A DNA stretch of 64,000 nucleotides from Halorhabdus rudnickae (GTDB lineage: Archaea > Halobacteriota > Halobacteria > Halobacteriales > Haloarculaceae). A program made the translations under genes and the position numbers. The notes under the pieces were generated by a model that saw only the letters and a program-made list of their open reading frames with translations, did no database searches and was not told where the DNA came from. Shown piece by piece: positions 19,230-40,029 of the stretch; positions within the stretch are counted from its first letter, which is position 1, and the number at the start of each line of letters is the position of its first letter. The DNA lies in the NCBI RefSeq assembly GCF_900880625.1, contig NZ_CAAHFB010000001.1, forward strand, positions 1,612,001-1,676,000, written 5' to 3'.

Positions 19230-20747
19230 TCACGCCAGCCAGTCGACGAACGTCCCTTCGAGTAGCGTCTCACGTTGTTCGCGAATGTACTGCGATTGCA
19301 TCCCCCAGATCGCTTCACCGAGTGGGACCCCCTCACGGACCTGGCGCCTGACCAAGTCGTGTTTGAACCGGGCGGGCGTCATCCGTCGGTCGAGGCGTTC
19401 ACGGAGAGGCCTGATGTACCGGCGGGCTTGGGCCGTCGAGAGACCGCGCAACTCCAGGCCGTCCCGGGCGTGCTCGAAGAGATCGCCATAGATCTCGTCG
19501 ATCGCTGTGGTCTCGCCACGTCCCGTGATCCAGGTCATCTCGGCTTGAAGACCGTCGTGCCCGGCGGCATAGAAGTTCTCGCGGGCCTGTTCCCATTCGA
19601 GGTTCCGGACCGGATGTTCTCTGCGGGGCAGACTTTCCAGTAGCCCGGCGAAGACAGCCTCGAAAGCCACGGCGTCCCGGATCGTCGGCTGGCCGGGCAG
19701 CGGTCGGAACTCGATGCGGGCGTTGGCCGAAGAGCGGGTCGCGCCATCGAAGACCGGCCGGATCCACCGCCAGTAGCTGCCGTGTTTGTGCCGGACGTGC
19801 GCGAAGCGATCGTCGAAGCGCCCGCCCGTTTCGACTTCCATCGGGACGATCAGCGGATCGGCGACGATCCGGTCGATGGCTTGCTCGACGGACTCGAAAT
19901 CGCGGGGGAAGCGGACTTTGGGTTCGGCGTCGCTCCCCTCGGGCGGGTTCAGAACGGACTCGAAGACGCCGATCCGGTGTTCCATGTGGGCGTCGGCGAC
20001 GATCTCCCGGTCGTGGGCGTCGTCGTAACACTCCGGCGGGAAGAAAGGAGAATTGACTCCGAGTGCGAGCAGTGGTCCGGCGACCCGGAGGGCGTACCGG
20101 AAGTACTCCGGGAGATCAGGGGCGTGGGGCACCTGGTAGTGGGGCTGAATGGACGTGATCAAGCTCTCGGGCATGACGGTGTCGGCTTGGACGGAAACGT
20201 GCGGGGCATCGAGCCGGAATCCGGCGGGGTACCCGGTGTTGGCCATCGCGTGGTATCGGACGCTGTCGGTCATGTTCGTCCCGATACGGATCCCATCCTG
20301 CTCGACGGAGTCACAGAGATACTCGATGGCCGTCTCGCCGTTAGGTGGGACCGTCCACATGCCGTCGCTGATCAACCGGATGTCTTCGGACCCCGTCCGC
20401 TCGATGGCCGGCGCGAGGTTGGCCTGGAGTTCACGCTCCTGGGCTTCGAGGCCGTAGTCGTTCAGTGGCTGTGGACTGGTCTGCATCTCGGCGTTGTGCA
20501 GGCCTAGTTCCTTCTCGAAGCCGATACGTTCGAGCAACTGCCTGGGAACGCGCCGGAGGTCGTCGGTCCGGTCGTCGGCCGCATACAGTTCGAACTCCAG
20601 GCCGACGATCGCCTGACTGTTGTCGAACGTCCCGTCCCGGACCTCCGCTTTGAGGCCCTCGGCCTCTTCCTCGGCTCGCGCCAGAAACGCCTCACGATCG
20701 ACCGACAGCGCCTCACGGAGCGCCGTGGCGAGTTCTGAGGCTGACAT
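19230..20747 (-). CDS. Glutamate-cysteine ligase-like (GCS2 superfamily) protein
   Basis: A 505-residue protein. QAIVGLEFELYAADDRTDDL provides the strand with metal-binding Glu residues (GxExE). LGLHNAEMQTSPQPLNDYGL resembles the ELxxxE region of carboxylate-amine ligases, and RIEFRPLPGQPTIRDAVAFE matches the late E-R/S motif. The rest is helical. The GCS2 superfamily couples ATP hydrolysis to amide formation between glutamate and an amine; haloarchaea use gamma-glutamylcysteine as main thiol, so thiol synthesis is possible, but this protein is not the canonical GshA and the true substrates are unknown. It is divergent from the lipoprotein gene at 20927. Confidence 0.7.
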   Translation of the reverse strand: MSASELATALREALSVDREAFLARAEEEAEGLKAEVRDGTFDNSQAIVGLEFELYAADDRTDDLRRVPRQLLERIGFEKELGLHNAEMQTSPQPLNDYGLEAQERELQANLAPAIERTGSEDIRLISDGMWTVPPNGETAIEYLCDSVEQDGIRIGTNMTDSVRYHAMANTGYPAGFRLDAPHVSVQADTVMPESLITSIQPHYQVPHAPDLPEYFRYALRVAGPLLALGVNSPFFPPECYDDAHDREIVADAHMEHRIGVFESVLNPPEGSDAEPKVRFPRDFESVEQAIDRIVADPLIVPMEVETGGRFDDRFAHVRHKHGSYWRWIRPVFDGATRSSANARIEFRPLPGQPTIRDAVAFEAVFAGLLESLPRREHPVRNLEWEQARENFYAAGHDGLQAEMTWITGRGETTAIDEIYGDLFEHARDGLELRGLSTAQARRYIRPLRERLDRRMTPARFKHDLVRRQVREGVPLGEAIWGMQSQYIREQRETLLEGTFVDWLA

Positions 20748-20890: not shown

Positions 20891-20917
20891 AAAATTATAT
20901 TACCCTGGGAGGGGTAA
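20891..20917 (+). promoter_or_regulatory. TATA box and operator-like inverted repeat upstream of the IMPase-type lipoprotein
   Basis: The AT-rich stretch aaaattatat (20891-20900) is a likely TATA box 27-36 bp before the ATG at 20927. Immediately downstream, ttaccc/gggtaa (20900-20905 and 20912-20917, six-base spacer) forms an inverted repeat across the expected transcription start, as a repressor site would. Confidence 0.5.
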
Positions 20918-20926
20918 ACTCGGGCG

Positions 20927-21895
20927 ATGGTGCGGTCACTTAACCGGAGATCGTATATTAAAGGGATCATGGCAAGCGGGGCAGCCACCGGGCTCGCCGG
21001 CTGTTCTTCGGGCCAAGAGACTACCGAATCCCTCCAGACGAACCACCAGGACACCGACACAGTCACCGAAACCCAAACGACACCAATGGCAAGCACTACC
21101 GACTACACTCCAGTCGTCGAACAGGCAGCAGTCACCGGCAGCGCCGTTGCGGCCAATCTCTTCCGCCGAGATATCGAAGTCGAATACAAGGACGACACGA
21201 AGGCCAATGTCGTAACGAAAGCCGATCGTGGCGCACAGGCGGCGATCATGGACACGCTTGAGCGACTCCAGCCCGATGGGACGATCGTCGGTGAGGAAGG
21301 TGACGCGGCGAAAGACGTACCTGACTCGGGACTGTCGTTCGTCGTCGATCCGCTCGACGGCTCGTATAATTTCACTCGAGGAAACCGCCTCTGGTGTGCC
21401 AGTGTCGCTGCAGTCGAAGACGGCGATCCGGTTGCAGCCGCCTCCGTCGCCCCGGCACTGGATGACGCCTACGTCGGAAGTCCCGAAGGCGTCCGCCGGA
21501 ACGGCGAGCCCGTCAGTGTGAGCGACCGTACCGACCCGAAGGGGTTCATGGTTGCTCCCACGTACTTCTGGGGCTTTGACAGTCGTGGACAGTTCGCCGC
21601 CGCGGCGCGTGCCGTCGTCGAGCGGTTCAGTGACCTTCGGCGGGTTGGCTCGACACAGCTCGCACTCGCACTCGTCGCTGCCGGCGAGATCGAAGCTGCG
21701 ATCACGAATCTCGAAACGAACCCGTGGGACACGATCGCCGGTGCGGCGATGGTCGAATGGGCCGGTGGCACAGTAACAGACCTGAACGGCAAGTCCTGGG
21801 GACCGGACAGTACGGGTCTGGTTGCCTCGAACGGTGGCGCACACGATCTCGTCCTCGAAGCGACCCAGGAGATCGAAGCCGCGAAACAGAGCTAG
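20927..21895 (+). CDS. Tat-exported lipoprotein of the inositol monophosphatase/FBPase family
   Basis: A 322-residue protein. Residues 1-25 are a Tat signal with lipobox: NRRSYIKGIMASGAATGLAGC, written here in parts as twin Arg 7-8 and lipobox LAGC. A Thr/Gln-rich linker follows to about residue 65. The rest is an IMPase fold with all three metal motifs: GTIVGEEGD (GEE), VVDPLDGSYNFTRGN (DPLDGxxN) and NPWDTIAGAAMVEWAGGTVT (WDxAAG). It should be a Mg-dependent phosphatase acting outside the membrane, lipid-anchored by its Cys. Family members are nearly always cytosolic, so this location is unusual. Possible substrates are extracellular sugar or inositol phosphates and PAP-like nucleotides. Confidence 0.85.
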   Translation: MVRSLNRRSYIKGIMASGAATGLAGCSSGQETTESLQTNHQDTDTVTETQTTPMASTTDYTPVVEQAAVTGSAVAANLFRRDIEVEYKDDTKANVVTKADRGAQAAIMDTLERLQPDGTIVGEEGDAAKDVPDSGLSFVVDPLDGSYNFTRGNRLWCASVAAVEDGDPVAAASVAPALDDAYVGSPEGVRRNGEPVSVSDRTDPKGFMVAPTYFWGFDSRGQFAAAARAVVERFSDLRRVGSTQLALALVAAGEIEAAITNLETNPWDTIAGAAMVEWAGGTVTDLNGKSWGPDSTGLVASNGGAHDLVLEATQEIEAAKQS

Positions 21896-39487: not shown

Positions 39488-40029
39488 GACTGGGGCCCCC
39501 GCTGGTAGCTCGCAAGCCCGCCCGGGTGGCCCGGCGGGTTCTCGATCCCGACCAATTCGGCGCCGGTCGGCGAGGCGTACAGCGCCAACAACAGATCGTT
39601 TATCACGTAGTAGCGAAGGCGTTCGACGTCGCCGCCGGTCGGATCGGAAGCGGCCTCGTCGGCCCCCATCCGCCGGAGCGCCCCATCGCGGTCGCCGACC
39701 GACAGCGCCCTGAACTCGCTGTCGAACCACGCCCGGCAGTACTCGTCGAGATAGGCCACGCTGTCGGCGATCCCGGCAGCGTGTTCGGGGCGATCGGCCA
39801 CCCGTCCCGCGGCGTAGCGCTCGACGAACGGCTGGATCGCCGTTACGTCCACGGGATAGAGCACCTCGGCGACGGCAGCCAGCGTTTCCCGATCGTGGTC
39901 AGTGAGGGGATCGTCGTGGTCGTCGCTCTGGCCGCCACTGTCAGCCGAAGGTGCGACACAGCCGGCCAGCGACGCCCCGACGGCCGACAGCGCTGCGATC
40001 GCGTCGCGTCTGGTGAGTTCGTGGCTCAT
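39484..40029 (-). CDS. Gluconate 2-dehydrogenase subunit 3-like Tat lipoprotein
   Basis: A 181-residue protein. The N terminus SHELTRRDAIAALSAVGASL has a twin-Arg motif, and SLAGC is a lipobox (Cys at about residue 24). After a Ser/Asp linker, DHDRETLAAVAEVLYPVDVT, AYLDEYCRAWFDSEFRALSV and VINDLLLALYASPTGAELVG, then GHPGGLASYQRG match gluconate 2-dehydrogenase subunit 3. This subunit binds and exports the GMC flavoprotein encoded next. It starts with a 4-nt overlap with the glycosyltransferase gene. Confidence 0.88.
   Translation of the reverse strand: MSHELTRRDAIAALSAVGASLAGCVAPSADSGGQSDDHDDPLTDHDRETLAAVAEVLYPVDVTAIQPFVERYAAGRVADRPEHAAGIADSVAYLDEYCRAWFDSEFRALSVGDRDGALRRMGADEAASDPTGGDVERLRYYVINDLLLALYASPTGAELVGIENPPGHPGGLASYQRGPQS

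Follow-up and report, generated by a model that had tools for sequence, protein, structure and literature searches.

When phosphatases of the inositol monophosphatase (IMPase) family are annotated by sequence alone, they are nearly always given a role in cytosolic metabolism. A gene of Halorhabdus rudnickae, located in the 64,000-nucleotide stretch of DNA analysed here (the window), raises the question of whether a member of this family could work on the outer face of the cell and, if so, what it might do there. The ATG-initiated open reading frame at 20927-21895 (+), for which both the coordinates and the translation were checked, encodes a product of 322 aa, in which MVRSLNRRSYIKGIMASGAATGLAGC is followed by a polar segment with many T, E, D and Q residues, ahead of an IMPase-family domain. 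All four elements named in the original prediction, that is, the twin-arginine signal, the LAGC lipobox, the polar linker and the IMPase domain, were found in the sequence and by Pfam (Table 1).

Table 1. Features of the IMPase-family gene and its surroundings, in window coordinates
Feature	Position	Strand	Basis
Gene for putative Tat lipoprotein of the IMPase family, 322 aa	20927..21895	+	sequence, Pfam, relatives
Predicted Tat signal peptide and lipobox	20927..21004	+	sequence; omega 0.07-0.19 in three species; pattern rule in PMC2945643
R7-R8 of the Tat signal	20945-20950	+	sequence
Lipobox LAGC	20993-21004 (Cys26, 21002-21004)	+	sequence
Linker, residues 27-55, polar, low-complexity, predicted disordered	21005..21091	+	AlphaFold pLDDT; variable among orthologues
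Internal Met54 (alternative start)	21086..21088	+	no TATA-like element upstream; Met missing in L167
Complete IMPase-fold catalytic domain	21092..21892	+	Pfam, AlphaFold model, Foldseek
V-T-x-x-D element, T97 to D100	21215..21226	+	alignment; fits D54 of the INPP1 metal pattern (PMC7948987)
Metal-ligand pair E123-E124	21293..21298	+	alignment to relatives
DPLDGS metal motif, Ser146 replacing the usual Thr	21347..21364	+	alignment to relatives
W267-D268 metal motif	21725..21730	+	alignment to relatives
TATA-like TTWT element, -32 from the ATG	20895..20898	+	haloarchaeal TATA motif (PMC4983044)
Divergent neighbour, faintly glutamate-cysteine-ligase-like, not proven as functional partner	19230..20747	-	adjoins the IMPase gene in 3 Halorhabdus

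The Inositol_P profile (PF00459) spans residues 63-316 (E = 5.2e-44; score 151 bits, cut-off 27 bits; positions 8-269 of the 271 in the profile). In the AlphaFold model (mean pLDDT 78.4, pTM 0.78), the first 55 residues are disordered (pLDDT <50), the complete domain starts at residue 56-61 and most positions from 56 onward are modelled with confidence. The top Foldseek matches of this model are SuhB/IMPase structures, the best being 8wdq (E = 8.6e-24, TM-score of 0.85 by target length). Assignment to a particular member of the family is another matter, given that none of the NCBIfam equivalog cut-offs was reached: the scores were 120 of the 275 bits set for HisN, 93 of 229 for CysQ and 80 of 264 for FBPase/IMPase, and the 78 bits obtained with the SuhB-type IMPase model (PRK10757) fall far below the 332 set for a functional myo-inositol-1-phosphatase. 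The same genome contains six strong IMPase-family genes, cytosolic paralogues among them.

The case for export starts at the N-terminus, which carries the twin-arginine motif NRRSYIK and the lipobox LAGC with Cys26. As in haloarchaeal Tat substrates, the arginines are accompanied by an uncharged core (NRRSYIKGIMASGAATGLAGC), and this arrangement is kept in three genomes. According to PMC2945643, Tat lipoproteins are frequent in haloarchaea and the TatLipo rule places the lipobox Cys 12-21 residues past the second Arg; here, the distance from Arg8 to Cys26 is 18 residues. A Tat signal combined with a lipobox is rarely produced by chance, as it appeared in 3 of 100,000 sequences made by shuffling the codons of residues 2-53. 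Both elements recur in two further Halorhabdus orthologues (G070, 92% identical, and G069, 89%), and the nearest named relative is Halorhabdus salina FL145 (89%). Among the three Halorhabdus genes, the pairwise omega over the 25 signal codons is 0.07-0.19, although the underlying counts are small (5-8 synonymous versus 2-3.5 nonsynonymous changes). Constraint is weaker in the linker (0.13-0.47), which also carries a single in-frame indel of one codon, and is tight in the catalytic domain (0.06-0.08). The substitution pattern over the signal codons matches that of a signal which is translated and under selection. Furthermore, TatC genes were found in every Halorhabdus searched. The anchoring outside the cell that had been claimed for this protein is thus backed by the Tat motif, the lipobox and selection on both, and we regard export and attachment to the membrane as its well-supported predicted localisation. 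Two other open reading frames of the window, at 40011 (-) and 45953 (-), also combine a Tat signal with a lipobox (TRRDAIAALSAVGASLAGCV and SRRRFLGAVSAGTLAGLAGCM, respectively) and are probably ordinary haloarchaeal lipoproteins.

Outside Halorhabdus, a single match that includes the N-terminus was found among 391 genomes of the class, namely, the 64% identical protein L167 (genome G355, family code f4). Its N-terminus, MVDSFNRRNYLKGVAGGVTSIGIATSASAQGEQ, contains a Tat signal (RRNYLK) and a signal-peptidase-I-like ASA-Q site, and neither a lipobox nor a Met near the position equivalent to Met54 was seen in it, suggesting that export was retained with a different mode of anchoring. The exported proteins of this group are sporadic, with four found, in 4 of the 391 genomes. 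The next relatives, ~51-58% identical over the domain, begin near residue 54 and have no signal. In quick trees of 121 and 136 rows, for which support was assessed by SH-aLRT without bootstraps, the exported proteins come out as a single clade (100%) that is nested in a cytosolic set (95-96%) and is subtended by a stem branch of ~0.5 changes per site; the phylogeny against cytosolic paralogues hence places the exported clade among cytosolic haloarchaeal IMPases.

The search for other Tat-IMPase fusions yielded, in addition to the orthologues and L167, a separate clade of ten members (L051-L059 and L069) from several haloarchaeal families. One of these is encoded in the H. rudnickae genome itself (G000:C6:137686-138774; L004/L051), with the signal RRRFLKMAGGGAALGTAGA containing RRRFLK, in which no lipobox was seen, and with only ~25% identity to the 20927 protein. 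The clade also includes genes carried on plasmids in Natronorubrum aibiense and Halostagnicola larsenii, whose annotation reads simply inositol monophosphatase, and is placed apart from the first clade with 99-100% support. Parsimony on these trees requires two changes of the Tat state and, from these sequences, it seems that exported IMPases arose at least twice in haloarchaea. The statement that IMPase/FBPase relatives are cytosolic, on which the original prediction drew, is therefore too strong in view of this second, independent Tat-IMPase clade and of the Golgi-resident gPAPP (PMC7948987). No Tat signal was seen in more than 100 other haloarchaeal IMPase-family genes read upstream, a set taken from the best-scoring matches, partly those with long open frames, and thus not a random sample. 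Loose matches to the Tat pattern upstream of L114, L125, L129 and L148 were rejected as chance-like, having no Tat-type hydrophobic core. The class-wide matches also include, in many haloarchaea, IMPase domains within open frames of 570-700 aa, which we take to be possible fusions of NADP phosphatase and NAD kinase.

Inferring export, lipidation, catalytic activity, substrate and scavenging role from sequence, we consider it probable that the gene encodes an exported, lipid-anchored, Mg2+-dependent phosphomonoesterase that was recruited from a cytosolic paralogue and may scavenge small phosphomonoesters. The Tat pathway exports folded proteins, so that the enzyme would fold in the cytoplasm, where it would probably also be loaded with metal, and would then be exported, cut before Cys26 and lipidated at this residue. 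The lipid would hold it on the outer face of the membrane, facing the brine, with the flexible linker of ~30 residues spacing it from the membrane. Such a protein probably originated through duplication of a cytosolic haloarchaeal IMPase gene and fusion of a Tat signal plus linker to its 5' end, in which case Met54 would approximate the ancestral start. Outside the cell, the enzyme might strip phosphate from sugar, glycerol or nucleotide phosphates, feeding the uptake of phosphate and/or sugar. Hydrolysis of extracellular phosphomonoesters for phosphate or carbon gain is the role that we favour, but tentatively, the substrate being guessed from the breadth of the family. The new substrate pool that was originally proposed would be implied provided that the protein is both exported and active, with no particular substrate singled out by the present findings.

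One of the substrates suggested earlier, inositol phosphates including those from phytate, now appears disfavoured. Profile searches with working positive controls found neither Ino1 (PF01658) nor beta-propeller phytase in seven Halorhabdus genomes, unlike in Haloferax volcanii, which gives an Ino1 match, and inositol phosphate metabolism is accordingly not a favoured role; on these two profiles, the phytate/inositol-phosphate pathway was set aside. In the alignment to 5zhh, the equivalent of the inositol-contacting human Glu213 is Asn261, which points in the same direction but is weak evidence, given that 51 of 54 cytosolic relatives also have Asn at this position and that certain archaeal family members likewise have no equivalent of Glu213.

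The gene neighbourhood offers little guidance. The divergent neighbour encodes a 505 aa product that is conserved in Halorhabdus, is faintly similar to glutamate-cysteine ligase (E = 0.009) and has no Pfam match. In each of the three Halorhabdus with the IMPase gene, the two genes are paired; the neighbour occurs without an adjacent IMPase gene in three other Halorhabdus and was not found at the L167 locus, so that the neighbourhood identifies no pathway and a functional link between the two genes was dropped. Neither the Halorhabdus loci nor that of L167 have a conserved phosphate, sugar, nucleotide, envelope, glycosylation or lipid neighbour. Next to the second Tat-IMPase gene of the H. rudnickae genome lies the gene for a short Tat-signal protein that matches the start of the GDPD family (L047:9255-9647 (-)) and seems truncated or frame-broken. 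A link between Tat-IMPases and glycerophosphodiesterases was also abandoned, as this fragment is truncated and none was present in two annotated loci and one list of open reading frames.

The main rival to phosphomonoester scavenging is a role in the cell envelope, whereby the enzyme would dephosphorylate lipid-head-group or glycan intermediates on the outer face of the membrane. A lipid anchor that retains the enzyme at the membrane instead of releasing it would suit such a role, and gPAPP sets a precedent for a family member in a secretory compartment (PMC7948987). We nevertheless consider it unlikely, because no conserved envelope, glycosylation or lipid neighbour was found, because the sporadic distribution of the clade is unlike that of housekeeping envelope enzymes, and because L167, from another family, seems to be released.

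A further question is whether the exported domain is still a catalyst. Alignment bears out the claim that the three metal-binding motifs are intact: T97 and D100 (VTKAD), E123-E124, D141 and D144 (DPLDGS) and W267-D268 are all kept, as is the AGG motif, so that D100, E123-E124, D141-D144 with Ser146, and D268 match the family pattern D...EE...DPxDG[T/S]...D (PMC7948987). Two positions that are nearly invariant in the cytosolic relatives are altered in the H. rudnickae protein, with Ser replacing Thr at 146 and Asn replacing Asp at 94 in the mobile loop, and activity or specificity could therefore differ. The exported clade as a whole has in common T146S, D94 replaced by N or A, an extra residue in the mobile loop and W138F (F in L167 too). 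Together with the long stem branch, these clade-specific changes would be compatible with a binding protein or sensor in which catalysis was lost or changed. We find this improbable, given that the direct metal ligands are all retained and that the domain is under the strong selection noted above. In class I FBPases, moreover, Ser is usual at the DGT position, which makes catalysis plausible despite T146S. A more specific scenario, possible but rather doubtful, is that, of at least two haloarchaeal moves of IMPases to the surface via Tat, one involved re-tuning of the active site, by the changes from DGT to DGS and from D94 to N/A, towards a phosphomonoester outside the cell that is served by no known family member.

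As to the start codon, a TTWT element precedes the upstream ATG of the three Halorhabdus genes at -32 (the 20927 gene), -30 and -30, and no TTWT/TATA-like element was found in the 60 bases that lead up to the internal Met. TTWT is the haloarchaeal TATA motif, and 72% of the protein-coding transcripts of Haloferax volcanii are leaderless (PMC4983044), so that the observed spacing fits a leaderless start at or near 20927. Retention of Met54 in the three Halorhabdus species might hint at dual products, one exported from the ATG at 20927 and the other cytosolic from Met54; this appears very improbable, as the promoter-like element is missing upstream of Met54, the Tat-bearing L167 does not have that Met and the same genome already encodes cytosolic paralogues. 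Least credible is a true start at Met54, the Met before STTDYTPVV that had been singled out as the potential flaw of the prediction: although it lies roughly where cytosolic relatives begin and is present in 3 of 3 Halorhabdus orthologues, such a start would leave an ordinary cytosolic IMPase behind a fortuitous upstream frame, whereas this frame is preserved in length and phase with purifying selection on the signal, the promoter-like element stands only before the upstream ATG, and L167, with its Tat signal and no such Met, removes the objection for practical purposes.

How does the exported lipoprotein compare with known systems? The IMPase family, its fold, the Tat-lipoprotein route and eukaryotic members outside the cytosol, such as gPAPP (PMC7948987), are already known. 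In the open-licence literature, outside of which most subscription papers fall, we found no report of Tat-exported IMPases, only unrelated co-occurrences. With the haloarchaeal TatLipo set, as described in the accessible part of PMC2945643, the 20927 protein has in common the RR motif, the LAGC lipobox, the core free of charged residues and the 18-residue spacing, and IMPase-family cargo was not found described in that part. If the proposed scavenging holds, haloarchaea might have an added route to phosphate from organic phosphorus in brines. More generally, a clade whose export is very probable, and whose origin is separate from that of the other exported clade, argues for checking localisation before function is assigned to such enzymes. 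The human gPAPP is anchored in the Golgi by a membrane helix. Like the 20927 protein, it is a metal-dependent family member placed outside the cytosol (PMC7948987), but it is eukaryotic and acts on PAP, whereas the 20927 protein is a predicted archaeal lipoprotein. The fold and metal pattern are also common to SuhB/bacterial IMPase and archaeal FBPase-IMPase (2p3n, 8wdq, 1lbv), which are, by contrast, cytosolic, 19-30% identical in structure alignments and different at the position of human Glu213, Asn261 in the 20927 protein. The second Tat-IMPase clade is likewise haloarchaeal, with the IMPase domain behind a Tat signal (RRRFLK/RRRTLK), and differs in its low identity, the lipobox not seen, another N-terminal spacing and a separate position in the tree. 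Closest are the cytosolic haloarchaeal IMPases (for example, L020, L023 and L002), among which the exported clade nests and which have the same fold and metal ligands, but which start at about residue 54 without a signal and have DGT rather than DGS and D rather than N/A at 94; together with these close relatives, the exported protein provides a small, testable model of how a cytosolic enzyme could become a surface enzyme by gain of a Tat signal.
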